Assembly: GCA_036924285.1 (NCBI GenBank)
Contig: JAYKYS010000004.1
Location: 27,808,001-27,872,000, forward strand
Length of the DNA stretch: 64,000 nucleotides
From: Asterella californica
Taxonomy: Eukaryota > Streptophyta > Marchantiopsida > Marchantiales > Aytoniaceae
Direction of reading: 5' to 3'
The notes beneath the pieces are model-generated. The model made no database searches. It saw nothing but the letters and a program-made list of their open reading frames with translations, and was not told where the DNA came from. Made by a program: the position numbers and the translations under genes. Of the stretch, positions 1 to 35,961 are shown piece after piece; position 1 is the stretch's first letter; each line of letters begins with the position of its first letter.

Positions 1-5
1 CAGTT

Positions 6-2273
6 TTGCGAGCCCCACTATTCTCAGCCACGGATATGAGAGCATTGGGAGTCAACTTGGCTCCAGTGTTCCAGTTGGCGGCCACGCTCAGTGAGAGCGA
101 GGATGTAGTTACCTCTAGTGCTGAAGTAGTTCAGCAAGAGACGGTAGACGTGTCCATGGAGTCGAGGATCAGGACAGCTACCAGTGGTACTTGGCAAGCG
201 GCGGCTGCTAGGTTAGATGAGTTACCAGCTAGGCCGGCGATTGACCGTGCTAGTTTGGCACCAGGTGTGGTGTTGTTGGACAACAGAAGTGGTATCTTCT
301 GTTTGGTGGCACCTTCAGGGAAAGTGTATCGACCCCAGAAGGTCTTGTTAGACTCTGGAGCCCAACCGTTGATGTTGGGAAAGGCGGCGTGTATTGGTTT
401 GGGTCTGAAGAAGTCCGAGATAGAGAGATGTCCATTCCAGTTGCAGACATCTCTAGGGGGATCAGGAGGTACGGCTCTACACATGACACGGGAGATGTTG
501 ACGGTGAGAGTTCGGCCAGATCACCCCACGGATGGCTCTATGGTGAAGGCCAAGGCCATTGTTACAGCCGCAGAGTCTTATGATGTATTGGTGGGAGGTG
601 CTGTGTTGTACCCTATGGGGTTCGTGATTGACTATTGGGCAGAGACAGCATCTTACAGACCAGGTTGGCAGTCCGGTGAGGGACGAGTGAGCCGCTTACC
701 AGTGCGGTTCAGTGCTAGAGTTGGGACGACGGAGCCTACACCAGGAACGATGGCATCCGTTGCAGGGTTCAGTTCGATCATCACTTGGCCGGATGAGTTG
801 TTGGAGGGTAATGCCCATGCGGAGGATACTCCGATCTATGAGGAGGTGGAGGACATGCCTAGCATGTCTACGTTAGTACCATCTGCCTTGGATGTTCCAC
901 TCTGGAGTTCGAGTGGAGGGTTGCAGCAGTATGCTGATCAGTTGGTGCAGCAGGCTTGGAGTGAAGCTTTTGTACCACCAGTAGAGGAACAAAGGGTTGT
1001 TCCTGCCACTGGCCCTGTGACCTTATCACCGTTGGATACGACTCCCATTGTGTGGCAGTATCCAGAGGAAGGTGTATGTGTGCTGGAGCTGTTTGGAGGG
1101 ATCAGCACAGGTTTGGCTGCGGTATTGCAGGCAGGTATACAAGTACAGCGATACTTGTATGTGGAGAGAGATGAGATTGCGAGACGCATCTCATTGCGAC
1201 ATGTGGCACGTTTGGTGCAAAGATATCCTGAGTTGTTGCCCATATCAGCTGTTAGAGGATACCAGCAAGCATTACCGTCGGATATTTCGTTGCTGGGGGC
1301 GCAGGATCTTACGTTTGTGGGCACCATTCACTTGGTGATAGCCGGATGGCCATGTCAAGGTCACACGCGTGCAGAGAGAGGTCAGGGTTTACATGACCCG
1401 CGATCTAGGATGTTCTGGGAGATGTTACGGATCCTACGACATCTCCAGATGCATCAGGTGGATTCTCCAGCATACATCTTGGAGAATGTTCCTTTGTTGG
1501 GTGATGCTCGTACACAGATGATGGCGAGTGTGCACCAAGTGCGGTCTTGGGTTGGACCAGCAGTGTTGTTGGATGCAGCGAGAGTGGGATCTCGTGCACA
1601 TCGTCCACGGTTGTGGTGGACGAACTTGTTACCGAGAGAGGTGCTTAAGCGCGCACACGATGGAGTGAGACGACCAGCGCACCTCACGGTTGATAGCATC
1701 TTGGATGCAGGACGACGATCTCAAGTAGTGAGAGTCGTCGATAGGTCACCCATGGCAGTGGTGAACCTAGTGGGACGGCCCATGGTAGCATTACCCACAT
1801 TGGTAAGCTTTCCAGCGTCACATGCTTACAGAGATGGAGGACCTGGGCTTGTGTGGGATGCTCAATTACGGCAGTTGGTGGAGCCCAATGCCGATGAGAG
1901 AGAGCGAGCGATGGGTTTCACTACGGGTACGACGACAGTAGCTTCGGTGTCGGAGGCTTCACGTCGTCAAGTATTGGGTCAAGCAATGGACTTGAATTGC
2001 TTGACATGGATTGTTAGCCTTGGATTGGCTGAGCAGCGTCGGATGCGATCGACGGGTGTTACTGCTCGAGCACTCTTGAGCTCTTTGCCTACCGGGTCGG
2101 TGGAGGCAAAGGCTGGGGGCGAGGCACGTGGAGTTCGTCATCCTTGGACATCATGGGATGTCATAGGAGAGAGTGTGGAGTTTGCAGCTAGAACTGCAGA
2201 AGTTTTACACACAGTAGCGGTGGAGGTTGTTGGTGGTGAGCAGAAGGAAACTGCTCCAGAGGCTGCAAGATAG
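6..2273 (+). CDS. Retroelement polyprotein, part 1: aspartic protease and DNMT3-like cytosine-5 DNA methyltransferase
   Basis: A 755-codon frame, open to the left edge of the window. Residues about 90-215 form a retropepsin-like domain with the active triad DSG at 116-118 and the later flap-side motif YDVLVGG. Residues about 358-690 form a C5-methyltransferase. Motif I is LELFGG (360-365), motif IV is GWPCQG with the catalytic cysteine at residue 450 (bases 1353-1355), motif VI is ENV (493-495), motif VIII is RPR (533-535), and the motif IX/X part has ERAMGF (from 633) followed by RRQVLG. The single-block order, the AHRPRLWW stretch and the C-terminal pattern resemble the DNMT3 clade. It should transfer a methyl group from S-adenosylmethionine to cytosine C5. 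No stop or frameshift breaks it. It ends at a TAG (2271-2273) that lies in frame with the RT part. Start codon not in window. Confidence 0.9.
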   Translation: MRAPLFSATDMRALGVNLAPVFQLAATLSESEDVVTSSAEVVQQETVDVSMESRIRTATSGTWQAAAARLDELPARPAIDRASLAPGVVLLDNRSGIFCLVAPSGKVYRPQKVLLDSGAQPLMLGKAACIGLGLKKSEIERCPFQLQTSLGGSGGTALHMTREMLTVRVRPDHPTDGSMVKAKAIVTAAESYDVLVGGAVLYPMGFVIDYWAETASYRPGWQSGEGRVSRLPVRFSARVGTTEPTPGTMASVAGFSSIITWPDELLEGNAHAEDTPIYEEVEDMPSMSTLVPSALDVPLWSSSGGLQQYADQLVQQAWSEAFVPPVEEQRVVPATGPVTLSPLDTTPIVWQYPEEGVCVLELFGGISTGLAAVLQAGIQVQRYLYVERDEIARRISLRHVARLVQRYPELLPISAVRGYQQALPSDISLLGAQDLTFVGTIHLVIAGWPCQGHTRAERGQGLHDPRSRMFWEMLRILRHLQMHQVDSPAYILENVPLLGDARTQMMASVHQVRSWVGPAVLLDAARVGSRAHRPRLWWTNLLPREVLKRAHDGVRRPAHLTVDSILDAGRRSQVVRVVDRSPMAVVNLVGRPMVALPTLVSFPASHAYRDGGPGLVWDAQLRQLVEPNADERERAMGFTTGTTTVASVSEASRRQVLGQAMDLNCLTWIVSLGLAEQRRMRSTGVTARALLSSLPTGSVEAKAGGEARGVRHPWTSWDVIGESVEFAARTAEVLHTVAVEVVGGEQKETAPEAAR

Positions 2274-5200
2274 CAGTCAACGACTTCGTCTTCTACCTCT
2301 AGCATGGTGACAGAGGATACTTGGGAGCCGGAGATCGGACCCAAGCTTATAGGAGAGGAGAGACGAAGAGTCCAAAGATTCCTGAAGAGCTACAGGAATT
2401 GTTTTGCCTTCAGTATGAAGGATTTGGGTACCTTGAAGGGACCTGGTATACGGATCGACTTGGTTAATGACACGCCAATCTTTTGACGTCCTTACAGGTA
2501 CAGTGACATGGAGAGAGCCTTGATCCAGAGTCGGACTCAAGACTTGTTGGAGGCTGGGTTGGTGGAGATGTCGCATGGAGAGTATGCATCTGCCACAGTT
2601 ATGCCAGCCAAGAAGGATATGTATGGCAACTACACAGATAGACGGATGTGTGGGGACTATCGTCCTATCAATCGGCAGACGAAGTCCGATAAGTATGCCA
2701 TGCCGACACCTGAGGAGATCTTTGATGCAGTGGGGCATGTGAAGGTCTTCAGTACTTTGGATCTTCGAGCAGGGTATCATCAGTTGCCAGTGAGAGAAGA
2801 AGATAAGTCCAAGACAACATTCTGGGGAATTGACTCTCACGGCAAGGATTGTTTGTATCAGTGGCGGTTCTTACCATTTGGGTTGAAGAACGCCCCTGCT
2901 GAGTTCCAAAGGGTGATGGACAGAATCCTTGCAGGATTGGATTTTGTCAGATGTTATATTGACAACATCTTAGTCTATAGTGCTACAGTGGAGGAGCACG
3001 AGAGACACTTACGGGATGTGTTTGAGCGGTTGAGAGCTCATGGGTTGAAGTTACACCCTGGGAAGTGTAAGTTCTTCCAGGAGTTGGTAGAGTATCTGGG
3101 CCACACCATCTATCCAGGTGGATTGGGTGTTCAACAGACGAAGGTTGAGGCTATTGCACGTATTCCACGCCCCACAGATGTGAGTCGAGTTCGAGCATTT
3201 GTTGGTTTGGCGAACTTCTATCGTCGATACGTGAAAGGGTTTAGTGCAATTGCGAAGCCGTTGACCAAGCTGATGAAGGTGGACCAGGAGTGGCAGTGGG
3301 GAGATGAGCAGGAGCGAGCTTTTGTAGAGCTCAAGGATAGGTTGACATCTGCTCCCATCTTGAGGAGACCCGTTAGAGGGCGTCCTTTCCAACTGCACAC
3401 CGATTGGAGTATGTTGGGACTTGGAGCAGTGCTGACTCAGCATGATGATGAGAAAAAGGAGTTCGTGGTGGCGTATGCCAGTCGCTCCAACAATTCAGCG
3501 GAGGCGAGGTATAGTTCGTATGAGGGAGAGTGTTTGGCGGCAGTGTGGGCTGTTGCACACTTTCGATGTTATCTGTTTGGGAACCCCTTTACTCTCATCA
3601 CTGATCACCAGCCGCTCAAGTGGTTGATGGAGTCCGACAAGCTTACAGGGAAGCTTGCACGATGGGCTCTGATCTTACAGGAGTATGACTTCCAGGTAGT
3701 ACATAGACCTGGAGTTGCAAACCTAGATGCCGATGGGTTGAGTCGCAACCCGTGCACGAGTCAGCAGGATCAGACTGGGGCTCGATGGCATGACGAGGTT
3801 GATGAGGAGATAGTGCCAGGGTGGCATGCATCTGCCTTTCTTTGTGTGTTGGCCATGAACTCTAGTATGGAGGGCCAAGTCGTATCTTTCTCTGGTCAGA
3901 GAGTAGATGATGAGTCTTCAGATCCTGAAGGTGGAGATGGTGTTTCAGACCAGCGAGATATCCATGATGATGTGACCGTGATGGAGTATCTACGTACTGG
4001 TGTGGTAGTAGGCACAGTAAGTGCCAAGGAGCGAGATCGTGTCCTTCAACGAGCGAAGAGATTTCGACGAGAAGGACGACATGTACTTCGAGTATGGGGT
4101 GATGGGAGGGTACGGATAGTGTCACATCCATCCCAGAGGGCACAGTTAGTACGACATGCCCATGAGGAGTTGGGACATTTTGGAGTGAAGCGTACGCATA
4201 GCTTACTCCAAGGACAATATTGGTGGCGTGGTATGCACATCGATGTGCAACAGTTTGTCGCACGATGTGTGGTTTGTGATCGAGTACGAGCATCGTTTAA
4301 TGCTCCTACTCCACAGTTACACCCCTTACCGATTATGGGGTTGGGTTACCGTTGGAGTTTGGATTTTACGGGACCCTTACCGTTGACCGTACGTCACCAC
4401 CGGTATGTGTTGGTGATGGTGGAGCACTTCTCCAAGTGGATTGAGTTGGTGGCATTACCAGACAAGGCGAGTGAAGGGACGGCGTACGCGTTCTTAGATC
4501 GAGTGCTGAGTCGTTTCGGAGCACCAGCTGAAGTGCTGACAGACCAAGGTACAGAGTTCCTTGGTGAGTTTCAGACCTTGTGTGATCAGGCGCTGATTGA
4601 TCATCGAACTACATCTCGAGATCATCCTGAGGCGGATGGTTTGGCGGAGAGGGTAGTTCAGACGGTGAAGAGAGGATTGCGCAAGTATGGCTTGCAGAAG
4701 GGCCACTTGGGAGACTGGGATGTGCAGTTACCATGGTTGGCTATGGGCTACCGTTTTAGCCGACAAGCATCTTTGGCTTCCTTCTCACCGTATTTCTTAT
4801 TGTATGGCCGAGATCCAGATCTACCTTCGGCCATTCGTCGTGATTCTGTTGAGGTGCTGGACCTTGATGACCCGGATATGTGGGTGAGAGCATGTTCTCA
4901 ACGAGCAGAGACATTTCGGAGAGTTATGCCTATGGCTTTTGAGAACCTAGCGATTGCCCAGCATAGAGACACGTTGCGGTATGCGACTATCCGAGGAGGA
5001 GGTTATCGGCCGTCGATTCGCAGGTTTCATCCTGGCGATTATATCTATCTACAGCAGACTGCACCGACGACGTTGGACGTGACCGCAGGGCGCACTATTT
5101 TACGAGTGCGTGAGGTGTTACCTTCTGGAGTACTCATGTTAGAGGGCCGTGATGGTGTTGTGTGGAAGGACCATGTGCGTAATTGCGCGCCATGTCATCT

Positions 5201-5399
5201 TCTCAACATTGATGGTACCGTCGATCCAAGCTTAGCAGTTGTACGCGCGGGCTTGAGGTGTATGTTGTGTGGGTCTGCTAGCGGAGCAGCCCGTATGTTG
5301 GTGTGTGATGGTTGTTCGAGAGGTTGGCACATGTCATGTTTGACTCCACCTCTCAGTGTAGTTCTTACTGGACGGTGGGTTTGTCCTCGATGTATATAG
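2274..5399 (+). CDS. Retroelement polyprotein, part 2: reverse transcriptase, RNase H, integrase, C-terminal PHD finger
   Basis: It continues the frame of the preceding methyltransferase ORF after the TAG. One further TGA (2484-2486) interrupts it just before RT, where CGA would give the usual arginine pair. From the ATG at 2508 there are 963 residues. RT comes first; its catalytic box reads CYIDNILVYS, so the second aspartate of YxDD is Asn (residue 153, bases 2964-2966). RNase H is at about 275-400. Integrase has an HHCC zinc finger (HAHEELGH ... CVVC) and the DDE triad (LDFTGP, LTDQGTEF, DGLAERV). A canonical C4HC3 PHD finger ends the protein: ligands C918, C921, C933, C936, H941, C944, C959, C962, with the conserved Trp at 957. 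The TGA and the YIDN box argue that this copy cannot transpose alone. Confidence 0.88.
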
Positions 5400-5572
5400 C
5401 GGAGATAGTCAATTAGATCTTTGCGTGGTATGGATTGCAGACAGGCGACTAACGATGGGACGATGTAGCACCCGGCCTCCTGATCCTTGCACCCATGAAG
5501 GTGTGTATCACGTAGTTGGGATATGGAGCTATCTGGAGTTAGAGGGACCTAACCGCCAGTTAGGGGGGCGAT

Positions 5573-5969
5573 TGTGGTACACTTGTGTATGTGTATGACA
5601 TCGTCCATGTGTTATGTGTATGTGTGGTGTTTCTCTGACAGCGATGTATGTTGTGTAGCGATGTGTATGCGCACGACAGCTGTCACGTCAGTTTGGGCAC
5701 CTCGGCTAGGTTGACCGAGTGCGAAGTGGCGCATCCCGGTAAGGCCGTTAGTGCCGTTAGGGCGAGTTGAGAGGAGAGTCCACTAGGGGTAAACTTCGCA
5801 GGTAGGGCTTGGAGGCCTTAGTTCTTTGAGTTGAGCCTTGAAGCTCCAGGCTATGGTGGATAGTCTAGTTGAGTGTAACCCGGATTCTCTTCGCGTTTAG
5901 AGTGGGTTTGGCTTGACCGTTTGTGAGTAATCCTTGTTGTGGTGTTGGAGATGGTAATCTCTGTATTCA
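5573..5969 (+). repeat. 3' LTR of the methyltransferase retroelement
   Basis: Begins TGTGGTACAC directly after a G-rich polypurine tract and ends ...TGTATTCA, so it has TG...CA ends and is 397 bp long. Its first ~110 bases recur at 5976-6084, which confirms the left boundary. The matching 5' LTR would be outside the window. It carries several TGTATGTGTATG-like stretches. Confidence 0.6.
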
Positions 5970-5975
5970 GATTAT

Positions 5976-6084
5976 TGTGGTACACTTGTGTATGTGTATG
6001 ACATCGTCCATGTGTTATATGTATGTGTGGTGTTTCTCTGACAGCGATGTATGTTGTGTAGCGATGTGTATGCGCACGACAGCG
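5976..6084 (+). repeat. Truncated second copy of the same LTR (first ~109 bp)
   Basis: Repeats the start of the LTR at 5573 with only a base or two of difference, then stops abruptly at GCGCACGACAGC, where the next element's sequence begins. Only six bases (GATTAT) separate it from the end of the complete LTR. It is either the head of a tandem or adjacent second insertion, or the product of LTR recombination, cut off by the following element. Confidence 0.6.
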
Positions 6085-6217
6085 GCGAGAAGCCTCTGAA
6101 CTTGATACTGGAGTTCCAGAAGAGACTGGAGATAGACGGAGGGTCACAAGGAGGCGAGCAGCCCCTCCAGAAGACGTCCCATCTACTTCTGCAGCTCCTC
6201 CACCAGCACCAGGTCCG

Positions 6218-7149
6218 ATGGAGGACGTGCAGAGATCCCAGCAGGAGCCAACGACTGCTGTTAGACGGTTTACTGCCCAAGAGAAAGGGAAAGGACCGGC
6301 TTACAAGTTGACAGCAGATATAGAGACTTCAACTGATCTCAAGAGCATCTTGGAGCAGAGAATACTTGACGCGCGAATCAAGTTTTCTCTTCGAGAAGTT
6401 CTTGGTATTGCAAAGAGGGAGTTTCACGAGCTGATCATCGACATCATCAAGCGGAAGAGACAGGTGATGTCTGAACAAGTAGAAAGCCAGATGATAGAGA
6501 TGGTAGGAGCTTCTGTTAATGATGCAGAATTCGGGAAGGTGCATTTCAGGAGGCTGATGATACAGAGTATCAGCAAGAAGCATTGGTTGCTGGTACCAAC
6601 ACTGCTGAGTTTGATGATGAAGAAGCTGGCGACGAGAGTCCAGCTACTGATAGCGACTTCAGAAAGAGACACTGGGCTCGTGCTACGACGGCTACACGAG
6701 TTCGTCTCGGAAGTCTTGAACCTGTTGCTGCGTTAGTTGATCACGGTTCAGAGATCAACATCATGTCACGGGAGGTGTACGAGAGAGGGCAGTGGCCCAT
6801 CGAACTGAACCATGGTTGGGTGCTACGAGCTGCAAACAACCAGAAGGGTGAGTTATACGGCGCTTGTCCCAACGTGAGAGTAAAGCTGGGTGATGTGGAG
6901 GTAGATCAGCACTTCTTCGTGCAATCTTCTGCTTCTTATCCTGTGATTCTTGGTCAACCTTATATCACCGCAGTTAGAATGGAGACGAAGGTGATGGATG
7001 ATGGATCTCACTATGCTAGGATCTGTAGTCCAGATGATAGACGTTCTGTGCAGTTTTTGACCGTTCGTATGAACCACGAACGAAACCGACAGACTTTGAG
7101 AGATTCTCCTATCTGTAGGAGCAAGGGTTTTCTGAAACCACTCTTGTAG
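6218..7149 (+). pseudogene. Gag-linker and aspartic protease of gypsy element (one frameshift)
   Basis: Two overlapping frames belong together. 6218-6736 has the linker with VLGIAKREFHELIIDIIKRK, then the coding sense moves to the frame 6583-7149. This second frame has a retropepsin-like domain with DHGSEINIMS (an unusual DHG instead of DSG or DTG, shared with the copy at 26.1 kb) and a later VILGQPY motif. A frameshift near 6560-6600 separates them. The linker and protease match the copy at 25.76-26.55 kb along their length, so the frame assignment does not rest on ORF length alone. The shared DHG argues that it is a family trait rather than a lesion. Confidence 0.65.
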
Positions 7150-7184
7150 GACGGGATACCAAGAGTGACGGATCTGCTACTACT

Positions 7185-8117
7185 ATGATCCCGCTTGAGC
7201 AGCCTGTGGGATCACAGGAGATTGACGAAGAGGTTGCTCAAGATTCTGAAAACTGCGACACTGTACATAGTTGGAAATCAGGTTTAATGACTTTTAGTTC
7301 TGATGATTGGAGTGAGTTCACGCGTGTAGAGGATTTGACTGAGAAGAGTAGAAGGCAGATGGAGAAGTATGTAGAAAATCTGCGTTGTACAGGAGTTCTG
7401 AAGGAAGGTGAGATGATTTCTGGTGTTTACGAGGAGTTTGTAGGTGTACAGTCTTTTGTTCGTTGGCTGGATGATGTAGATAGGTTGATGGAGCAGATGG
7501 GAGGAAGGGTGGTGATCCCTATCCACTCTCGTAAGGTCTATGAGGAGGTTGCCTCGTGCTTGCAATCTTGTCCTCATCCGAGACTGGAGAGTGGATGGAA
7601 GGATGCAATCTGCTGGTGTGGGTCTCGTGAAGAAGCAGAGGTTCACACCAAATACAAAACTGTAGCGAAGAAGGTGAAGCCAGTGGCGACCCAGTTACCT
7701 GTTGATTCACGACAGCAGATGGAGTTAGCGGCCACTGAGCCTGTACTGAGAGATCCTAAACAGATAGGACACAAGTTTACTCAAGAGACACTCGAGCAAC
7801 TCCAGATAGGAGGGGGTGGCTTCTTGACTGAAGTGGAGAAACGAGGTTTCGAGCAGATGATAGTTAGCCATGGTAAGGCATTTTCTTTCTCAACTGGAGA
7901 GATTGGTTGTGTGGATCCTAGTGTGATAGCTCCGATGGTTATCTTCACTGTTCCTCACGTACCTTGGGACTTGAAACCGATTCTAGTCCCTCGTGCCTTG
8001 CTACCGATGGTTATTGAATTATTGAAGGAGAGGATGACAAAAGATGAAGACGCCCCGGCTACTGAAGAGGCTGAGGCGGAGGAGAACGATGCTGATGAAG
8101 AACAAACCGAAGACTGA
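7185..8117 (+). CDS. Gypsy pol linker and RT N-terminal stub with acidic tail
   Basis: A 310-residue frame in the non-autonomous element. The first ~250 residues match the connector between protease and RT in the copy at 26.55-27.2 kb (shared stretches WISGVYEE-like, YKTV.KK.KPVA, IGCVDP). The RT entry motif MVIFTVPHVPWDL follows, and then, after LLKERM, the protein turns into a Glu/Asp-rich tail of about 27 residues and stops. In the other copy RT continues at that point. The catalytic RT is therefore missing and this product cannot polymerise DNA. The acidic tail may be the normal C-terminus of the polyprotein, joined by the internal deletion. Confidence 0.55.
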   Translation: MIPLEQPVGSQEIDEEVAQDSENCDTVHSWKSGLMTFSSDDWSEFTRVEDLTEKSRRQMEKYVENLRCTGVLKEGEMISGVYEEFVGVQSFVRWLDDVDRLMEQMGGRVVIPIHSRKVYEEVASCLQSCPHPRLESGWKDAICWCGSREEAEVHTKYKTVAKKVKPVATQLPVDSRQQMELAATEPVLRDPKQIGHKFTQETLEQLQIGGGGFLTEVEKRGFEQMIVSHGKAFSFSTGEIGCVDPSVIAPMVIFTVPHVPWDLKPILVPRALLPMVIELLKERMTKDEDAPATEEAEAEENDADEEQTED

Positions 8118-18354: not shown

Positions 18355-20740
18355 TATTCACGGTATCGTGTTGTGGTTCAGCTCCTGTGTGAAATTCTTG
18401 TGGAACGTAGGTTGTGTTTCTTTTCTGTGTTTCGTGAATCGTATCGCGTAACTCGTCGAACGGTGTGATGAGTGCCACGTTTGTGATTATATGTTTAAGT
18501 GATCGCACGGTAGAGGAACGTGCTAATTCATCGATTTGTGCATGTTCACTTCAGTGGTCCTTGTCGCCGCATTTGTGTATAAAATGGTGGGTCGAAGGTT
18601 CATACGGCATTCTTTCTCAGTGGGTGATTCGTGAGGGTTCTCGCTGGTCTGCATGGAGGAGTGAAGAACTGCAGGAGTGGTGGTTATGGATGGAGGTTTG
18701 TTAGCGGCTCCGGATCCGTTTCACATCAAGCTTCATTGCATCCACCGCGATCACTTTCGACAGTGGTTAGTTGCATACTTTGGCGATGAATTTATGGGAA
18801 GAATGATGGAGTTACAACTTCCGGTGATCCTTCCGATCGTAACATACGGAGAGACTTGGGATATGACGGTGTACATTTTGTTGTGAAGAACAATGGATCT
18901 CAACTATCCATCGAACGTTCCTTTCAACCTTTGGGTCGATGTCCGGTGTCATTGCAGACCGAAGATCAATCATGGGACTTGGATCGTGAGAAACTTCGGA
19001 CAAGAATATTACAATCGAGTGATAGCTTCACCGTTTTCTTTTGTCGTACCTTTTATTGTAGAATATTTCCAGGTTGTAATATTGACGTTGTATTAGTCTG
19101 CGACTCAATCGTTTCCATTCTAGTTGAGCGCTTCTATGTAGTTACGGACCGCGAAGAATCCATCGACATATCTGAAGGATTTCCGAGGTCTTAGACTCTT
19201 GTTGATGTCTTGTGTCTCCTTGGAGAGTAAAAATTCGTTCTAGGGGAAAAAGTTGAGTGGAGAAAAGACAAAAGTAAAGCTCTTTTTGTTCTTATTGGTC
19301 CACTTTTGACCAATGGTGTTCTAGCTGATTCTCGCGATGTTTCTGTGGTTTCTGGAGGCTTCGGAGGTCCATACGCAAAACGAAGGATATGGTTGGAGAG
19401 CTCTCGACCGGGGCTACAATCTGGGTTGAAGAATCGATCGATTTGATGGAAGGATAAGGACGTTGTGTTCGATTGAGTAGAGGGGGATGAAATTCGTACC
19501 TACCGCTATGTTTCTGGTTGTTCCGAGAGACTCGTGAGGAGTTTTGAGGAGCTGTCTGTTGGGTTGGAGAGCTGACGACGTGCTGGTCGTTTTGATATCA
19601 ATTTCATCAGGTTCTTGATCGATTTGGATTCTGAACCGACCGATTGAATTAGAGAAGTGCAGACGTGATAAGGCGGGAACATCAAACTGTGATAATCATG
19701 GGTAGTTTGCTATTGCTTAAGTTCTGAGTCTAATTTCTGAGTGAAACTTTCCAGGATTGAAGCATGTCTTATCAGTAAGATACTTGAGAAGTTTCACCTC
19801 AAATGGTAGAGTAGTTTGTTCAGAATCTTGGATCAAATGTACGTGGGTCTGTAAAGCTCTTAAGTCAGCACAGATTACGGTTTGATCCATATCTGAGAAT
19901 TGGTTTAAGGTTTCGACCTGAAAATTATTCAGGGTAAGAGTGAAGGGTCCAATCAAGCTTCCTGTGAAGTTTGATGATCATTGGTCGACTGGTTTGGGAG
20001 AACTGAGGTCTCAAAGTTCGGAGATACTTCTGTTATTAGCAATTTCGAGTTTTTCGGTATCATCTATTGTCATTTTGGTCATTTTCGAGCAATTTGGAGA
20101 GGAGTTTGTTGCTGAAACTGCCATGCCTGCATACAACTCGACACTGGAGGGTGTGGGGTTGATTTCAGCTCTTGATGATGAAGGAGAACGGAGTCGTCAT
20201 GAATCTTAAGCCGTTGTTTGGGTTCTCGGAGCTGCCAGGTATTACCGTCGTTGGTGCTATATTGTGATCTGAGTAGTGTCTTGGAGCATGCATGCTTTAC
20301 CTTGCTGGAATGCTTGGTAAGCCAGGGTGTACATCAAGTTGTATCGAGACTCGTTCAAGTTGGTTGAGTGATCTTGTAGTATCTTTCAGTTGTATCAAAT
20401 AGAGTTGTGGCGGCGAACTGATGGGTAGTTAGCGTCGCTGAGAAGTTGTTAAATCATGCTTCTAGTGATTTAGAGTTACTTGCATGCAGATAGCACAAAG
20501 TTGAGTGTTTCAGGATTTGTATGTAACACAAATTTGTACAACTTATATGTATCATGAGACCGTAGCAGCCTTTAACCTTGAGTCGAGAGATACAAGATCA
20601 CTTGTCCGAGAGGAGTAGATAGAGAGCATTAGGGTTGAAAGATCAAGGTTCGGAGCCAATATGTTCAAGTCACCTACCTCTACACAGCCATATACCTCGT
20701 ATATTCCTAGATAGAAAAAAACGTTATACGATAACGGTGG
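18355..20740 (+). repeat. Dispersed repeat, copy A (~2.4 kb)
   Basis: Aligns along its length, with many substitutions and small indels, to 59900-62360 on the same strand. Shared blocks include TGTGTGAAATTCT, GGTGTGATGAGTGCCACGT, TACGGAGAGACTTGGGAT, GGATCAAATGTAC and CCTCTACACAGCCATATAC. The family is not identified; it could be a long LTR, a LARD or another non-autonomous element. It contains a possibly once-coding stretch at 18677-19096. Confidence 0.7.
18677..19096 (+). pseudogene. Possible remnant coding stretch inside the dispersed repeat
   Basis: Two ORFs (18677-18886, 18893-19096) lie in one frame separated by a single TGA. In the other repeat copy (about 60.28-60.65 kb) the frame is kept through the same stretch, with the TGA at the same place and two further stops. 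The two halves resemble each other weakly (WLVAYFGDEFMGR against WIVRNFGQEYYNR), suggesting a duplicated domain. I do not recognise a family, and this may be coincidence within a non-coding repeat. Confidence 0.25.
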
Positions 20741-20940: not shown

Positions 20941-21639
20941 TGGTTCCGTTCAAGAAGCTTAAATATTCTGTACATGTGTTTTCTTGAGGAAATTTTCCTG
21001 TAAAGTTTTTACTAGCATTTCCTACGCTAACTTCTCTATACAACTCCATTTTTAATGAACAAGGAGTCAAAACTATAGTACTTGTGAACACCTACACACT
21101 CATGCTATCAGATTCTGAGTTCGAATCACGAGCCAGAATCGGCAGATTTCTCTCTTTCGCATATTTCTCAATCTAAAACTCATACTAACTATTGCTTAAA
21201 ACACTTTCTGTCAAAACTGGAAGCATGAGGTCGCTCTCCTCGTCGAGCTCTGCATTCTGGAAACTTTCGCTCTCATTCAGGGTGATATTTCAATCCAAGC
21301 TAAGGGGCAGCTTGCCAAACATAGCCCTAGCTTAGCTCCTGCTCAGCTTGATAAGCTATGCCGCAACTCCCTGAACAAATGCTGGCTGAGTGTCTTCTGA
21401 AGCTCCGTTTCATCATCTTGAACGTCACGCACTACGACAACGTCAAGCAGTTCAAGTCCATTGCTTGATCCAACACCTGACAACATGAAGCCTCTGACAT
21501 CGAAGCTACTACCGTCGTACTTGTAAGAAAACCCATTGTTTGACATTGGACTCTCTCTCATCGACATTGAGCTCCACCAACTGTTGTAACCGAGCATCCC
21601 ATACAAGCCCAGGTCTTCTATCTATGTAAACATGTGATG
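20941..21639. other. Spacer, no gene recognised
   Basis: No supported coding sequence. A short block around 21300-21350 (AGGGGCAGCTT...CCCTAGCTTAGC) is an inverted relative of the direct repeat at 17.98-18.08 kb. Confidence 0.35.
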
Positions 21640-22077
21640 TTAGAAAGCTCACCAAAGTGAGTAACGCTGTCATGGCCGTCCCATTAGGTTCATCACTGTA
21701 ATGGGTAACCTATCAATGACTCTCACTACTTGAGATCATCGCTTGCGTCCAAGATGCCATGAACTGTGAGGTACGATGATCGTCTCATTGCATCGTGTAC
21801 GTGCTTGAGCACCTCTCTCGATAACAAGTTCGTCCACCACAACCATGGACGATATGCACGAGACCTCACTCTCGCTGCATCTAACAATACTGCCGGTCCA
21901 ACTCAAGATCGCACCTGGTGAATACTCGTCATCATCTGTGTGCGAGCATCACCCAACAAAAGAACGTTATTCAAGATGTATGTTGATGAATCCACTTGAT
22001 GCATCTAGAGATATCGCAAGATTTGTAACATCTCTCATAACATCTTAGATCGCGGATCATGTAAACCTTGACCTCTC
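21640..22077 (-). pseudogene. Fragment of the retroelement DNA methyltransferase (second copy)
   Basis: The plus strand here is the reverse complement of about 1373-1817 of the intact methyltransferase ORF, with frequent transitions and small indels. It covers the part from just after motif IV to beyond motif VIII. It is joined head-on at about 22078 to an RT fragment of the same element in the opposite orientation. Confidence 0.75.
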
Positions 22078-22490
22078 TCATTGGAGGTTAGGTTGGTGGA
22101 GATGTCGCATGGAGAGTATGCATCTACCATAGTTATGCCAGCAAAGAAAGATATGTATGACAACTCACGGATAGACGAATGTGTGGAGACTACCATCATA
22201 TCAATCGACAGACGAAGTTCAATAAGTATGCCATATTGACACGTGAGGAGATCTTTGATGCAGTCGGGCATGTGAAATTCTTCATTACTTTGGATCTTCG
22301 AGCAGGGTATCATCAGTTGCTGTGAGAGAAGAAGACAAGTCCAAGACATCATTTTGGGAGATTGACTCTCACGACAAGGATTGTTTGTATCAGTGACGGT
22401 TCTTATCATTTGAGTTGAAGAGCGTCCCTGGTGAGTTCCAAAGAGTGATGGACAAGATCCTAGCAGGATTGGATTTCGTCAAATGTTATA
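22078..22490 (+). pseudogene. Fragment of the same retroelement's reverse transcriptase
   Basis: Matches about 2547-2960 of the element at the left of the window (GGTTGGTGGAGATGTCGCAT, GATCTTCGAGCAGGGTATCA and so on) with stops and indels. It ends just before the YxDD box, exactly where a 157-bp-spaced direct repeat begins (22491). Confidence 0.78.
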
Positions 22491-22722
22491 TTCGTTTGGA
22501 CGCCTAGTGGAGAAGTTACAAGACTCGAAAGACGGGTAAAACAAGCTAGACCTCAGCTTACGGACTTTTGACACGACTTCAGATTTTCACTTTCATTACA
22601 TCGATGGATAGAGCACCTTGTCAGCTTTCCATATGCACTTTGCCTATTTCGTTTGGACACCTAGTGGAGAAGTTACAAGACTCGAAAGATGGGGAAAATA
22701 AGCTAAGCCTCAACTTAGGGGC
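22491..22722 (+). repeat. Direct repeat pair, period 157 bp
   Basis: TTCGTTTGGACGCCTAGTGG and the ~60 bases after it (22491-22565) recur as TTCGTTTGGACACCTAGTGG (22648-22722) with a few substitutions. The first unit starts at the breakpoint of the RT fragment. Confidence 0.7.
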
Positions 22723-25499: not shown

Positions 25500-26551
25500 G
25501 CATGCTTACATCGTCAAGAACCAACACGAAGCGTTGTTGGAAGAGAAGAGAAGGCGAGATTCAGAGGATTCAAGGGAAGGAACTTCTTCAAAGAGATAGA
25601 CTCGAAGAGAGAAGGTTCGTCAAGAGCTTCGAGATGCAAGAGCTCAAGATCTACCGATGGATGATGCTCCTTCTCCATCGAAAGAGAGAGCAAAGGAGTT
25701 TTAGAAGGAGAAGGGTAAGCCGGCTGCATACAAACTACAGTCGGACATCAAGGCTTCAACAGACTTGGAGGGAGTCTTGGAAGATCGCATTCTGAATGCG
25801 AAGGTGGAGTTTACCTTGAAGGAAGTGTTGGGCATTGCTAAGCGGGAGTTTCATGATGTCATCATCGATGTCATCAAACGAAAGCGACAGATTCCGGGTG
25901 AGACTGGTTTATCACATGCCTTGGATACTAAGATGTCTGTGGATGAGGAGAGAGCTTGCAAAGTGCAGTATTTATTCTTTAGAGGAAGAAAGAGATCGAA
26001 GGCGTAGGGTACATTTTGAGGATGAAAAAGAGGATGGAAAACAAAGCTCAAGTCATTACAGTCACAATCACTGGGCTCGAGCTACAACGGAGACGTTGGT
26101 GAGAATCGGAGACTTGGATGAGCCGGTGGTTGCTCTGATCGATCATGGATCAGAAATCAACATCATGTCGAAGGAGCTGTATAAGAGGAAGAAGTGACAG
26201 ATCGACATAGAGCATGGGTGAGTCATAAGAGCAACCAACAACACAAGAGGAGACTTGTATGGAGCTTGTCCAGACATCAGAGTGCGCGTAGGTGATGTTG
26301 CTATCGAGCAAAACTTCTTTGTTCAGAAAGTAACATCATACCCACTCATTCTTGATCAACCTTTCATCATAGCAACTCGGATGGAGACAAATGTACTGGA
26401 CGACGGATCTGCTTATGCTAGGATCCGAAGTCAAGATGGGACGAGAGCGGTACAATTCTTGACTGTACCGTCCAATCACGAATGCAATCGAGATCGTCTG
26501 AGGGAGAAACCACTTCCAAGGGTGAGTGAAGAGTTCAAGGATTTTCGTTGA
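25500..26551 (+). pseudogene. Linker and aspartic protease of the decayed gypsy element
   Basis: Fragments in several frames (25765-26007, 25835-26197, 26255-26551). They contain VLGIAKREFHDVIIDVIKRK and the protease motif ALIDHGSEINIMS, followed after a stop near 26196 by the second half of the protease (LYGACPDIRVRVGD ... LILDQPF). Each block has its counterpart at 6.3-7.15 kb. The DHG triad is shared by both copies. Confidence 0.65.
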
Positions 26552-27191: not shown

Positions 27192-28108
27192 TGTAACGAC
27201 CTATGTTACACATAGGAAGTTTGTCTATTAGTAAGGTATTTAGTTATAACTAAGTGTTGAGAATGTTTATTTGCTGCCAAAGTACTTTAAGGAGGTATCA
27301 AGTTAGTCATGACTAGCTAAAAGTTAGTTATGGTTAAACTTAGCTGTACTTTTGGCAGAATTCAGATATTTGCTAAAGAGTGAGCACTACTATCTTGTCA
27401 TCTTGTCTAAAAGGTAGAAAGGAGGTGGAAAGTATTCCTTATCTCCTTTTTGACTTGATATTAGTGGTTGGATTAAAGTTGTGGACTTTGTGGGCATTAA
27501 AAACAAGAAGAGATTCTACATGTTTCCTTTTTAGTGGGTCCTAGTGTAGAGGGGGGTGGAAATTCGAGATTCCTTGAGAATATTCCAGAATCCTTCTAGA
27601 AGTTGTTGACTTTGAAGGAATAAGCCCATGTGAAAAGGTAAAAAACCCATGTGATCAATGCTTTTACCTTAAGTAATATCTTAGTAAACCCGGTAAAAGT
27701 AGTTACGGTTGAGTTACCGGGGGTACCAAAGTAAAAACCTAGAATGTATAAATAGAGGAGTAGAGAAGAGCTCCTCATCCTTGTTTTCACATCGTCGTAA
27801 TGACAACTTGAGTAATATAGAGAGTGTGAGATATGTTTAGCATGTGAGAACTTGAGAGACGTCGTTAGAATGGAGGATTTTAGTGGATGAGTTTATGGAG
27901 ATTGTTAGTTGATAATTTTGTGGGTTTATGAATGAGTGAACTTAGCATTTTCCCTTCAAGTTCATGGTGTGCTTCCATCAAAGTCATCAGAGGTGACCTC
28001 TGAGTGAGAGACAGGCCCGACATGTTGCAGATTCGTGGATGACGATCGTGGAGGTTGAGAGATCGGGGGGGGGGGGTAGTTGATCGATAAGACCGCGGAG
28101 GGTTTACA
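27192..28108 (+). repeat. 5' LTR of the nested element
   Basis: 917 bp, TGTAACGACC ... GGTTTACA, with TG...CA ends. Contains a TATA-like TATAAATAG (around 27747) likely to act as the element promoter, and a G-run near its end (28067-28077). Confidence 0.92.
27747..27756 (+). promoter_or_regulatory. TATA box of the 5' LTR
   Basis: TGTATAAATAGAGG lies inside the LTR, about 350 bp before its end. The same motif is kept in the 3' LTR (about 35600). Placement fits a U3/R promoter; the transcription start is not shown by the sequence. Confidence 0.55.
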
Positions 28109-28112
28109 TTTT

Positions 28113-28129
28113 TGGTTTCGTTGCCGGGA
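28113..28129 (+). other. Primer-binding site of the nested element
   Basis: TGGTTTCGTTGCCGGGA lies four bases after the 5' LTR, a variant of the TGGCGCCGTTGCCGGG type used by Athila/Tat elements. Confidence 0.7.
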
Positions 28130-28404
28130 CCTCACTTGAAGGGATCGTTGAACGATGTTTAGAGTTCAGTTCCATATTCGACAAAAGGAGATTATGAGAG
28201 AGCACATGGAGAGAACGTTGGGAGGAGAGAGAGCTAACGCGATGTTAGCAACGTTAGAACCTTTCGTGTATCCCGTAGTGATATATGACGCGTTCGAAGT
28301 CATTCTTTACATCTTGTTCACTTAGAAAGGGTTTGAGGAGAGTTGAAAGAGTGTGCAACAAGAGTTGTAGAGGAAGGAGGAGAGAAAAGTTATTAGAGGA
28401 GATA

Positions 28405-28930
28405 AATTTGTGAGTTTAGAAATTCTGCTCTCTGGAAAATTTGTACAGTCGCTGTCAACTTTTCTGTGAATTTTATTTTCTTGTGATACTTTCCAGTGTT
28501 TTAGATTGGCTGATAACCTATCTAAGACAAAAGAAATCATAGGAAAAGGTGGTCTAGAGAGGGAGCAATGAATTTTCAAAGTTGAGGGGGTCTATTCGTG
28601 AGAGTTGAGGAATTCTGTTATCTGGAAAAAATTTACAGTCATTGTCAGATTTTCTGTGAATTTTATTTTCCTGAGAAACTTTCCAATGTTTTAGAGTGAC
28701 TGATAAGCTATCCAGGACAAAAGAAATCATGAGAAGATGAGGTCTGAAGAGGGAGAAAGAATTTTTCAAAGTGGAGGGGGTTGACAACCATGAGGGAAGT
28801 GAAAATATACAAATTTCAGTTCTCTGAAAATTTGTACAGTCATCACCATCTCTTCTGATTAGGGAAGTTTCTGTTGAAACTTCATGATTTAGTAGCTTGG
28901 AGGTTGAGCTACTAGAGACCAAAAAAATCT
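28405..28930 (+). repeat. Three diverged tandem repeats of ~190 bp in the retroelement leader
   Basis: Units start near 28405, 28597 and 28795. Each has a TCTCTGGAAAATTTGTACAGTC-like block, a TTTTCTGTGAATTTTATTTTC-like block and an AACTTTCCAGTGTTTTAGA-like block. The third unit is the most diverged. Minus-strand ORFs here only reflect the repeat. Confidence 0.75.
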
Positions 28931-28996
28931 TGGAGAGATCTCTTACCAACTAAGAGATATACGTTTCGGCATACAAGGAGGTCTTGAAGATACTTC

Positions 28997-29929
28997 ATGG
29001 GGAATCCAGTTCGAATGACGAGGTGGAAGAAGAGACGTTTAGGAGTTCGAACAGAGACGGAGAAGCCCAAGTTAAGTATAGATGAGTTACGAACCCGCAT
29101 CTATAGCACTTGGGGTGCCCTCTTTACCCTATACGAAGAAGCTTCCTCTACCATTGGCACATATTTGAAGAAAGCCGAGTTTAAAGCATCATTCACTGTG
29201 GAGGCCACGAATGCTCCTGGTGAAGTAGAGTTGGATTTTTACAAGAGTGAGTTCAAGATGTCTGTTGTGATTAGTACAAACGATGGTGAGGAGGATCATA
29301 TCTTCTATAGTTAATTTTAGATTAGATTTTATTTCTTGTATAGCATGTATAATACACGATTTCCAATATAAAGCTCGGAAGAGTTAAGAAAGTGATGTAG
29401 AATTATTTTCCTCTATGATATTTTGTCCACTTAATGGTTGAGAAGGTGCAACATGAGTGGAAATTTAAAAGATTGGAAAGTTAGACTTAGAAACCTTCCT
29501 CAAGGTTTAGATGTCATAGTAAGTGTCGGAGAAAGTTCGAGAGAGATTATCGTCGAGTTTGAAAATCCTAGTACTAAACCTCAAGTAGAATCTCCGAGGA
29601 GAAGAGTAGAAACCGACTTGTGGTGTTATTTCTGTAGAGGGTTGGGACACAAAGTACTGAATTGTCCAACTAGAATCAGAACCGAGAGAGCTAAAGGGAA
29701 GCGGGAGTTTACTGATTTAAGTCTTCGAGTGGGTCCATCGTCACCAGCGCCAATTCATCTTCTAGGCGAAGATCCTTGTCCAAGTTGTGGAGTGGGTGAT
29801 CTATCAAGAGGAAACAAGTGCGTCGATGTGGCCGCCCTACTTACGTCAGTAGTCGAGAAGTTGAACGAGACTCAAAGAGCTGAGACGGAGAAGTTGTCGA
29901 CTTCAAAAGAGGACTCGGCTGAGTTGTGA
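28997..29929 (+). CDS. Accessory ORFs upstream of gag, second with CCHC zinc knuckle
   Basis: Two ORFs in the leader: 28997-29314 (105 aa, basic N-terminus, otherwise unrecognised) and 29438-29929 (163 aa). The second has CYFCRGLGHKVLNC, a retroviral-type zinc knuckle, then a Cys pair (CPSCGVGD). They are separate from the main gag, which has its own knuckle further on. They could be one gene with an intron or a frameshift, since a non-coding stretch of about 120 bp lies between. The role is unknown; single-stranded nucleic-acid binding is a fair inference for the second. Confidence 0.45.
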
Positions 29930-30142
29930 TGGAGATCGTCATTCGGATGGTGGAGAAGGCGGTGATGCGACTCAAGCTCATGATTACCTTGGGAGAAGAG
30001 ATGGCACAAGAGGTGTTGTTACAACCATTTCCTTTCATTTTACCTATGGTAGATTATTCGCGAATGGAATTGGTGATGTTCGTACTCTTTTAGCGAGTAG
30101 TTATTGCACAAAAATTAGAAGGGTAGAAAGAATAGTTACAAG

Positions 30143-31953
30143 ATGGGGAAGTTACCAGTGTTTCATGGGAAGGACAATGAAGATGTAGAACCATTTGTAC
30201 GAGACTTCAAAAGGGGTTGCATCGGGAAACAACGTGAGAAGGAAAGAAGAATGGGTGTTGTTACTGCCAGAGTTTTTTGAAGATTTTGCTCTTACGTGGT
30301 ATGACGACCGAGTGAAGAGCAAGACACCTGGTGCAGTTGAGGACACATGGGAGACGTTGAGTAATGCACTCGTCGAAGAATTTCTTCCAGAAGAGAGTTA
30401 TGAGAAGCTCATGGTGGAGCTTACTCATTTGAAGCAACGAGACGACGAGAAAGTTCGGCAATATGCCGAAAGGGTGGATAAGTTGGAGCAACGGTTTCGG
30501 ACGGTCCTACGGAAGAGTGGAGACAATGTGGAGCTAACGATGGCGGGGATTGGAGCAGTGTTGACCAAGAACTTGGTGGGAGGGTTGAGGCCTTCAATTC
30601 GAACCCAAGTGAGGTACGAGAAGCCAGCAACCAAAGCGGAGGCTATCAAGATAGCGACAAATATGGAAGAGAGTTTGGATGAAGGAGATATCATCCAACC
30701 TCATCATGCTGCTCTGGTGTCAACTCCGACTCCTGGTGTAGTCACAACGATCGCACTTGCACCATCACAATTGGTGATTGCTTCAACGTCAGGTCCTACT
30801 CCAACGGTGGGACCAAGACCGTTTGTCCCAACAACGATGTCTACTGCCACCTCTGATTTTCATGCCGAGCTGAAGAGCATCACCGATACTCTTGCGGATC
30901 TCAAGATAAACGTGGTGCAGTTACGAGAATGGAGGAACAAAGGTGGAGGAGGAGGTCAAAGAGGTTACGACAACCATTCCCAACCGAGGAAATCAAGGTA
31001 ACTTTGGAGGCAACCAAGGTAACTTTGGAGGAATCACTTGTTGGACGTGTGGAGGTTCTCATTTCCAGCGAAATTGTCCTAACAACGGAGCAAGAGGTGC
31101 CGAAGCTATCAGAATGAATGTGGGTGGAGGAAATCCATCACAAGGACGAGACAAGGGGGTGGCTACTATCGATGTCGTGCGAAATCCCATCTACGAGAAA
31201 GGAGAGAGTTCAAACTCTTCTCATGCACCGGTGGAGCTTTTAGCTCAAGAAAGGAAAAGAACTCGATTTTCTGTTGAACCGGTTTTCATGGAGGAGTCAG
31301 CAAGTAGAAGTACTCGTTCGAGTAATGTTTCGAGTACACCAAGGGAGCCAAGAAGGAAGCTAGGGATGGCGGATTTCACCATTTCATCTTCCCAAGCGGG
31401 ATATGATGTGGTTGAAGATGTGGGTGCTCAGAAAGCCAACATCACTGTTGGACAACTCATCGCACTTAATCCCAGCTTACGAAGGGAACTCAGAGGAGGA
31501 CTGAGTTCTAAGAGAAGCAAGAAGAAGAAACCCAAGAGCAAGACATCAAAGTCTGTGGGAGTTGGTGTGGTGGATGTGCATGCTTCAGAGGTATGCGCTA
31601 GGGCTTCAAAGATTGAAGTCCGGTTGAATGGTCACTACGTCTTTGACGTATTGGTGGATGGAGGGTCGGCTGTAAACGCCATATCGGAGAGGTTGATGAA
31701 GAAGTTGGGGATGGAACCAACTCGCCCGGCTAGCATTGTCGTGGGAATGGCTAACAAGCAACGGGTAAGACCTCTTGGTGTGTTAGAGAAGGTGGTCGTG
31801 TCTGTGATGGGAGTTCAAACATTGATGTCTTTTCAAGTGTTAAAGGACTCTAGTTATGATTTGCTCCTAGGTAGACCTTGGTTGAGAGCTATGCGCACCA
31901 CGGATAGGGGCACAAGGGATATTTACGGATTGGGCCTAGAGATCAGAGAGTGA
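30143..31953 (+). pseudogene. Gag and aspartic protease of the nested element (frameshifted)
   Basis: Gag starts at the ATG at 30143 (MGKLPVFHGKDNEDVEPFV) and shifts frame near 30220 into 30195-31001, which has the gag core (EEWVLLLPEFFEDFALTWYD ... EFLPEESYEKL). A second shift near 30985 leads to 30943-31953, with the zinc knuckle CWTCGGSHFQRNC, a Lys-rich linker and the protease (VLVDGGSAVNAIS, later LLLGRPWLRA). DGGS in place of DTG/DSG is common in plant Athila/Tat proteases. A further shift near 31945 connects to the acidic linker before RT. One of the shifts could be programmed, but the number argues for decay. Confidence 0.75.
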
Positions 31954-32207
31954 TAGTTCCTCTCTCGGGTGTTGGAGTTGTGACTTCTGACTCTGATAGA
32001 CCCATTAGTGACTACTGGGAATCTGATACGGAGGATGATCAGAGTGTCTCAAAAGTAGATACCGGAGATTCTTACGATCAAGACTCCTCGTCTGAGGACG
32101 AAGGATTTGGTCGAGATGAATCATTACATCAGCTTAGTGCTATTGACTTGTTGCCTCGACCAGCAGTGGAGAAAGATCCTGACAAAGAAGAGTTGAGTGA
32201 GGCATAG
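31950..32207 (+). pseudogene. Acidic linker between protease and RT of the nested element
   Basis: Asp/Glu/Ser-rich 85 codons in the same frame as RT, ending in a TAG (32205-32207); the RT frame continues directly after it. The GTG shown as its first codon is not a real start. Confidence 0.55.
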
Positions 32208-32210
32208 ATT

Positions 32211-35030: not shown

Positions 35031-35043
35031 TCCGGGGGTAAAA

Positions 35044-35961
35044 CGTAACGACCTATGTTACATATAGGAAGTTTGTCTATTAGTAAGGTATTTAGTTATA
35101 ACTAAGTGTTGAGAATGTTTATTTGTTGCCAAAGTACTTTAAGGAGGTATCAAGTTAGTCATGACTAGCTAAAAGTTAGTTATGGTTAAACTTAGCTGTA
35201 CTTTTGGCAGAATTCAGATATTTGCTAAAGAGTGAGCACTACTATCTTGTCATCTTGTCTAAAAGGTAGAAAGGAGGTGGAAAGTATTCCTTATCTCCTT
35301 TTTGACTTGATATTAGTGGTTGGATTAAAGTTGTGGACTTTGTGGGCATTAAAAACAAGAAGAGATTCTACATGTTTCCTTTTTAGTGGGTCCTAGTGTA
35401 GAGGGGGGGTGGAAATTCGAGATTCCTTGAGAATATTCCAGAATCCTTCTAGAAGTTGTTGACTTTGAAGGAATAAGCCCATGTGAAAAGGTAAAAAGCC
35501 CATGTGATCAATGCTTTTACCTTAAGTAATATCTTAGTAAACCCGGTAAAAGTAGTTACGGCTGAGTTACCGTGGGGTACCAAAGTAAAAACCTAGAATG
35601 TATAAATAGAGGAGTAGAGAAGAGCTCCTCATCCTTGTTTTCACATCGTCGTAATGACAACTTGAGTAATATAGAGAGTGTGAGATATGTTTAGCATGTG
35701 AGAACTTGAGAGACGTCGTTAGAATGGAGGATTTTAGTGGATGAGTTTATGGAGATTGTTAGTTGATAATTTTGTGAGTTTATGAATGAGTGAACTTAGC
35801 ATTTTCCCTTCAAGTTCAGGTGTGCTTCCATCAAAGTCATCAGAGGTGACCCCTGAGTGAGAGACAAGGCCCGACATGTTGCAGATTCGTGGATGACGAT
35901 CGTGGAGGTTGAGAGATGGGGGGGGGGGGTAGTTGATCGATAAGACCGCGGAGGGTTTACA
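35044..35961 (+). repeat. 3' LTR of the nested element
   Basis: About 99% identical to the 5' LTR. Its first base is C instead of T (CGTAACGACC). Ends ...GGTTTACA, followed by the GTAC target duplication (35962-35965). Confidence 0.92.

Follow-up and report, generated by a model that had tools for sequence, protein, structure and literature searches.

The window analysed here, a stretch of 64,000 nucleotides from Asterella californica, carries on its forward strand one damaged, 5'-truncated copy of a young and abundant Ty3/gypsy-type retrotransposon, and this element contains a DNMT3-type cytosine C5 methyltransferase. The kind of element has been known since 2018, when KnitGypsy-Dnmt3 was described (PMC5890265). 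The full explanation that we favour on balance, built from sequence comparisons, is that of a self-primed gypsy-type element with a leaky UAG codon, which would insert after its ends have been joined and whose DNMT would methylate the element itself.

The methyltransferase domain occupies positions 1071–2060 (+) of the window, within the open reading frame 3..2273 (+), and the motifs LELFGG, WPCQ, ILENV, AHRPR and ERAMGF...RRQVLG, on which the sequence-only reading had based its assignment, are all present; the catalytic Cys of WPCQ is residue 451 of this frame (bases 1353–1355). PCQ/PC, ENV and the other C5 motifs follow the canonical order, and the DRM-type rearrangement is absent. The Pfam match was DNA_methylase (E 1.8e-7) and the top PDB sequence match was DNMT3A (E 5.9e-10). 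Profile comparison with the PDB ranked DNMT3A (9.6e-23) above the best DRM-type chain (8.8e-10, partial cover), and the bacterial enzymes HaeIII and HhaI scored 8.1e-7 and 5.9e-6. An AlphaFold model of the domain had a mean pLDDT of 90.3; when it was submitted to Foldseek, DNMT3A was the best match (E 4.8e-21, TM 0.85 by target length) and all 50 rows listed were DNMT3 entries or complexes. The profile scores and the Foldseek rows rule out a DRM-type or bacterial-type enzyme. The DNMT3-like enzyme is real and looks intact.

The sequence-only reading had also proposed a genome search for further copies, and had named an assembly artefact as a possible source of the frame junctions. Searching the genome (516.7 Mb, 773 contigs) yielded at least 121 DNMT copies with identities of 97–100%, a lower bound, with 121 of 4250 first-look candidates scored; because so many copies occur in the same genome, an assembly artefact is excluded. 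Twenty copies were read at length, namely every second of the best 40, and this sample therefore leans to copies that resemble that of the window. The latter is truncated at its 5' end about 1056 bases upstream of window base 1.

What remains of ORF1 in the truncated window copy (1..2273, +) is its 3' part, which encodes the C-terminal portion of Gag, the protease and the DNMT3 domain; in complete copies ORF1 is 1368–1371 amino acids long. The retropepsin that had been placed upstream of the DNMT was found as a protease-like region at 288..647 (+; LLDSGAQPLMLG), with LLDSGAQ visible in the sequence, PF13650 in the homologues P0021, P0031 and P0063, and a dN/dS of 0.13 in 18 copies; in ORF 3..2273 itself there was no Pfam protease match at E 0.1. 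The uninterrupted frame from DNMT to reverse transcriptase (RT) that had been described did not survive inspection, since it is broken by an in-frame TAG at 2271–2273 and an in-frame TGA at 2484..2486 (+). The TGA is private to the window copy (0 of 19 other copies) and the TAG is common to all 20, and a single unbroken polyprotein is thus excluded. ORF2 continues in the same frame as ORF1, and its remainder at 2487..5399 (+) encodes RT, RNase H, integrase and a PHD finger according to Pfam and PDB matches. The RT is of the Ty3 type (PDB-level match to Ty3, 1.6e-97), the order is RT-RNaseH-integrase, and the integrase is of the rve type (PF00665). The PHD finger (PF00628, 2.4e-10) forms the C terminus of the integrase ORF at 5232..5396 (+); its closest sequence relatives among solved PHDs belong to KDM5B, KDM5A and PHF21A, which read unmodified H3K4. 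Both ORFs are open over their full length in seven of the 20 copies, and ORF2 is open to its full 1041 amino acids in nine.

The TAG and the six bases that follow it (TAG CAG TCA, 2271..2279, +) are identical in all 20 copies read, the window copy included, and conform to the type I readthrough motif UAG CAR YYA (PMC11166343), so that they were taken as a presumed type I leaky stop between DNMT and RT. In the window, the hexamer CARYYA follows 11 of 6171 stop triplets (both strands, TAG 2271 included). A distant relative, L009, whose DNMT domain is 49% identical, has TAG CAA TCA at the equivalent site. The sequence features of type I readthrough were all found, namely the motif, its retention between relatives and a constrained frame downstream; RNA folding around it gave modest z values (-2.4 and -2.9). 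Because the stop is kept in 20/20 copies and its CAR-YYA context recurs in a distant relative, TAG 2271 is probably a leaky UAG, in which case ORF1 would yield Gag-PR-DNMT and readthrough would add RT-RNaseH-IN-PHD. The independent DNA witnesses of the stop number two, the studied genome and L009. Among 212 homologues, 39 PR-MT proteins and 34 RT-RNH-IN-PHD proteins were counted, numbers that fit two ORFs in many relatives without proving them for each. A stop between DNMT and RT is not general, since the Klebsormidium nitens protein P0141 has both domains fused in one frame with the stop absent; fused MT-RT gene models also occur in Marchantia. The RT-RNH-IN-PHD proteins counted might also stem from elements that have no DNMT.

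Pairwise dN/dS among the copies (13–20 copies per region, gag excepted) was 0.13 for the DNMT, 0.13 for PR, 0.10 for RT, 0.17 for RNase H, 0.06 for IN and 0.31 for the PHD; the DNMT, with the same value as the protease, is hence kept about as strictly. The linker between PR and DNMT gave 0.58, gag 0.29 (three copies only) and the DNMT tail 2.13 at a dS of only 0.009. These values also bear on the possibility that the element is an ordinary gypsy in which TAG 2271 arose by mutation of one recent master, leaving a dead Pol and copies that were moved in trans. All 20 copies are young and near-identical, as a recent master would have it, and for the same reason they amount to few independent witnesses. 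Such a history is nevertheless very improbable in our estimation, given that the same stop and context occur in L009, that many relatives have separate ORF1 and ORF2 proteins, that ORF2 has stayed open to its full length in nine copies, and that RT and IN show the low ratios just listed.

Singleton C-to-T changes, counted per site and copy in 12 colinear copies, amounted to 0.0040 in CG, 0.0048 in CHG and 0.0029 in CHH, compared with 0.0008 for A-to-G. This excess, about 3.7- to 6-fold over A-to-G per site in the three contexts, fits copies that are methylated in every context, and it favours host silencing as much as self-methylation. It is also what methylated copies would predict if the DNMT were a host-tolerated brake that helps to silence the element's own copies and so permits coexistence of element and host, an idea that is among those in the 2018 discussion (PMC5890265). 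Since host enzymes alone should produce the same mutation pattern, and a brake that works is hard to square with the 121 or more young copies, we regard this role as rather unlikely.

Comparison of copies showed that complete elements, of about 9.9–10.0 kb, have the structure A1 (292–293 bases)-leader-ORF1-ORF2-polypurine tract (PPT)-B1 (110 bases with a GC bridge)-A2 (293 bases)-B2 (108 bases). The right end is preserved in the window. Its PPT (GTTAGGGGGGCG) lies at 5559..5570 (+), immediately before B1 (108 nt plus the 2-nt GC bridge, 5571..5680, +); A2 (293 nt, 5681..5973, +) is near-identical to the left-end A1 of complete copies, and B2 (5974..6081, +) forms the right end of the element with ...CGACA. 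The internal B1|A2 junction, CGACAGCTGTCACG at 5674..5687 (+), contains the palindrome GACAGCTGTC, the presumed integrase site; it was identical in 19 of the 19 junctions seen, and its 14 nt also occur in L009. The ends do not consist of two complete direct LTRs, the left end having A1 only and the right end B1-A2-B2, and conventional LTRs are thereby excluded for this DNMT element family. A1 was present at 12 of the 15 left ends fetched (11/12 in a first set and 1/3 in a second) and was not found at those of L033 and two others. The termini are TGTCACG and CGACA, with a substitution in one copy. Within copies, A1/A2 and B1/B2 differed at 18 of 4409 sites, and A1 differed between copies by a mean of 2.1% (55 pairs, range 0 to 5.1%). 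Target duplications of 4 bp, read by eye, flanked all 12 copies of which both ends were read (11 plus L077). The element thus has both the RT-RNaseH-integrase order and the 4–5 bp target duplication of Ty3/gypsy elements.

The bases directly 3' of A1 are the exact complement, over at least 12 bases, of AGTTCTTTGAGT at A position 140 in 11/11 copies (5820..5831, +, in the A2 of the window copy), with no base between A1 and the start of the complement; L034 has an A1 shortened by one base and AGTTCTTTGAGT at A position 139, and L009 has a different 13-base pair. This arrangement is the self-primer layout of Tf1, and AGTTCTTTGAGT is the presumed self-primer. The A2|B2 joint was examined in the right ends of 80 of the 121 copies (20 + 60), of which 64 had readable joints. 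Forty-eight of these were exact and 16 had insertions: a single added base in 13 copies (T in six, A in four, G in three), and longer ones in L032, where the insertion is GTTAGGGGGGCG, identical to the PPT, in L077 (27 bases with PPT letters at the end) and in L028 (23 bases). PPT letters are therefore found inside the joint of two copies (L032 and L077). Elsewhere in the same stretches, 29 indels were counted in 22,795 aligned sites. Nearest copies were not seen to share variant joints (0.06 of 12 observed against a shuffle mean of 0.40, with the observed value reached in 194 of 300 shuffles), in a test that had little power with 12 variant joints among 48 usable copies. The 16 unreadable right ends included L055 and L096, whose last repeat is an A in inverted orientation, again with the TGTC terminus, and whose left ends were not found, L031 with an inverted segment and L106 with an A fragment; the other 12 had neither repeat in the fetched stretch.

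In the mechanism that we propose, the UAG would, in all likelihood, be read through now and then, so that the DNMT would be produced in amounts like those of Gag, exceeding those of RT and integrase, and could enter the particle. With equal confidence we expect the 5' end of the RNA to fold back as its own primer; from a self-primer after A1 and a PPT before B1, reverse transcription should yield a linear [B-A]-internal-[B-A] cDNA. It is likely, at a somewhat lower level of assurance, that the ends of this cDNA are joined together, to be found inside the integrated form as A2|B2, and that the joined molecule is then cut by the integrase at the B|A palindrome within it, whereby the split repeats would arise. 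This third step is missing a directional rule, because the two equal B|A sites of a two-LTR circle predict that about half of the left ends should be A-B-A and none of the 12 readable left ends was. More tentatively, the DNMT may methylate the element as cDNA, as joined DNA or once newly inserted, the first two, before or at insertion, seeming to us the most likely; the element would then enter chromatin already methylated, with the PHD aiding the integrase in its choice of chromatin.

The single type among the left ends read would be accounted for by replication of the kind used by DIRS/PAT elements, in which RNA runs from A1 into B2, the B1-A2 guide rejoins the ends and A2|B2 is copied from RNA in each round. 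DIRS/PAT elements have split direct repeats A1-B1A2-B2 and a tyrosine recombinase; the repeat layout is shared, in that the split/inverted terminal repeats of the DIRS order are present. The second mark of that order, a tyrosine recombinase without target duplication, is absent, since the element has an rve-type integrase (PF00665) and 12/12 duplications, and tyrosine-recombinase elements are not known to produce target duplications. The A2|B2 joints, moreover, vary far above their surroundings and can contain PPT letters, and A1 ends exactly at the self-primer site, as B1 starts exactly after the PPT. We therefore consider DIRS/PAT-like replication unlikely, even with the repeat structure of KnitGypsy-Dnmt3 having been called DIRS by its authors (PMC5890265).

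Named relatives among the matches listed came from liverworts (Marchantia, Calypogeia, Riccia), Sphagnum, Closterium, Klebsormidium and some chlorophytes, together with many environmental sequences. Liverwort DNMTs were the closest named ones among the matches listed (77–78% identity), compared with 42% for K. nitens P0141; the earlier expectation of a host unlike Klebsormidium is in keeping with these values and with a genome of 517 Mb. L009 is a 9.3-kb contig whose ends overlap by 127 bases and which was binned in a cyanobacterial MAG; in the genome contigs database it was the sole element among five loci, the other four being weak matches titled Streptomyces. Scans of IMG/VR found no element: one found no relative, and the other eight loci with weak partial matches (26–38%).

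In a pol tree of the 81 sequences, out of 214, that passed length filters, all 31 DNMT-labelled tips fell inside a 67-tip clade (support 0.77), in which the PHD was present in 56 of the 67 tips, as opposed to none of the 14 tips outside it; P0141 lies within this same PHD/DNMT clade. Among the relatives the DNMT stands either before RT or, in a second layout, between RNase H and integrase. In the pol tree one 25-tip clade (support 0.88) includes all 23 second-layout tips and lies within the first layout, with modest backbone support (0.45–0.93); 42 of 43 second-layout tips form one clade in the DNMT tree (support 0.85), the root of which is weak, with human DNMT3A, the one host enzyme included, as outgroup on an adjoining branch of 2.31. 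P0156 falls with the second-layout proteins in the pol tree and outside their clade in the DNMT tree. Named sources of this layout are the chlorophytes Chlamydomonas eustigma (P0190 and P0196, the latter partial) and Tetrabaena (P0177, short DNMT match only), and one such protein, P0098, is filed under a spirochaete MAG. The simplest reading of the two trees would be one capture of DNMT and PHD, after which the DNMT moved once inside the polyprotein, although independent captures are also conceivable.

The window holds further traces of such elements. At 21442..22079 (-) a related copy (84%) has left an older, broken piece of DNMT, which has four stops in the 203 codons plus stops compared and a dN/dS of 0.47 against the window copy; it adjoins an RT fragment (89%, sequence match) at 22081..22492 (+) in the opposite orientation. 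Another gypsy element, at about 27193–35961, carries a complete repeat, about 0.9 kb long, at each end. As to the eRF3 exon structure mentioned in the sequence-only reading, a motif scan of the stop-to-stop frames revealed no GTPase motifs.

Among known systems, the nearest is KnitGypsy-Dnmt3 of K. nitens, and the claim that the gypsy-type element of the window, with its DNMT3-type enzyme, is of this kind (PMC5890265) was borne out by the Pfam, PDB, profile and Foldseek results and by comparison with P0141. The two share the domains of a gypsy element plus a DNMT3-type enzyme, which P0141 has upstream of RT, as well as DIRS-like repeats and purifying selection on the DNMT (PMC5890265); the differences are a DNMT that is 42% identical and, in P0141, one frame in place of the conserved UAG found here. 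The main text of PMC5890265 does not mention PHD or Marchantia, though its figure could show a PHD, and target duplications, a self-primer or joint variation were not found for KnitGypsy-Dnmt3 in the accessible part of that paper. Expression of its DNMT in yeast gave no methylation, a result that the authors call inconclusive (PMC5890265). The dinoflagellate DIRS-type enzymes methylate CG in yeast (PMC5890265). SymbioDIRS-Dnmt3 and SymbioLINE-Dnmt of dinoflagellates are likewise retroelements that carry a cytosine DNMT, but they belong to other retroelement classes and were, according to the authors, acquired independently (PMC5890265). DNMT3s embedded in retrotransposons of streptophytes and dinoflagellates are also referred to in PMC12344493, and the 2018 paper is cited by PMC6338049. 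Self-priming has been predicted for the Tf1/sushi and Tcn1 gypsy elements, and target duplications of 4–5 bp are given for plant LTR elements (PMC6317226); the accessible part of that paper on Tf1/sushi and Tcn1 has no match for methyltransferase or PHD. In the open-licence full texts, we did not find a conserved leaky stop, joint and target-duplication evidence or a self-primer for DNMT-bearing retrotransposons, nor the PHD clade, the second DNMT position or a recent amplification on a large scale in a genome close to those of liverworts.

Methylation usually silences transposons, and a selected de novo methyltransferase inside one is a paradox, to which elements of a charophyte and of dinoflagellates first drew attention in 2018 (PMC5890265). 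The function of the enzyme becomes testable with the copies described here, because they are young and their nearest named relatives are in liverworts, including the model plant Marchantia. That the enzyme is encoded together with Gag, ahead of the presumed leaky stop, points to the particle or the cDNA as its place of action. We judge it an evenly balanced question whether a gypsy clade spread through green plants inserts by a path that no LTR element is known to take, joining its ends first, as a two-LTR circle or similar, after which a retroviral-type integrase would cut the LTR palindrome and leave a 4-bp duplication, with the Gag-side DNMT3 marking the intermediate as self and the PHD acting on target choice. 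Tf1/sushi and Tcn1 elements have conventional LTRs. The difference from DIRS/PAT elements lies in the tyrosine recombinase there and the rve integrase with target duplications here, and the joint evidence would explain in a simple way how DIRS-like repeats can arise in an element whose integrase is of the retroviral type.

At the right ends of L055 and L096/L117, loci of the main DNMT-bearing family in the same genome, the terminal repeat B2 is replaced by an inverted copy of repeat A, and the inversion pivots at or near the presumed self-primer site. Within the window, a related copy is represented at 21442-22492 by older fragments of its DNMT and RT, which lie head to head with the junction at approximately 22080.

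The distant relative L009 (CADCWO010000201.1, 1-9285) is a gypsy-DNMT element that was binned within a cyanobacterial MAG; since it is such an element, its DNA is presumably eukaryotic. The ends of L009 overlap by 127 b, like a circular assembly path.

In the window, the B2 end of the DNMT-bearing copy is followed directly on its right by another retroelement with ORFs that resemble Gag (DUF4100) and protease (6062-8117); a stretch at 26069-26438 is 68% related. Long stretches at 18361-20727 and 59902-62353 are 77% alike, and a DUF6570 ORF (2.9e-12) is located on the minus strand at 46427-47518. A second gypsy element spans 27193-35961, and the Pfam scan revealed no DNMT in its scanned ORFs. 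Possibly flanked by GTAC as a target duplication, this element carries 0.9-kb repeats at both ends, which are 98.8% identical, and its layout is that of a conventional LTR element.
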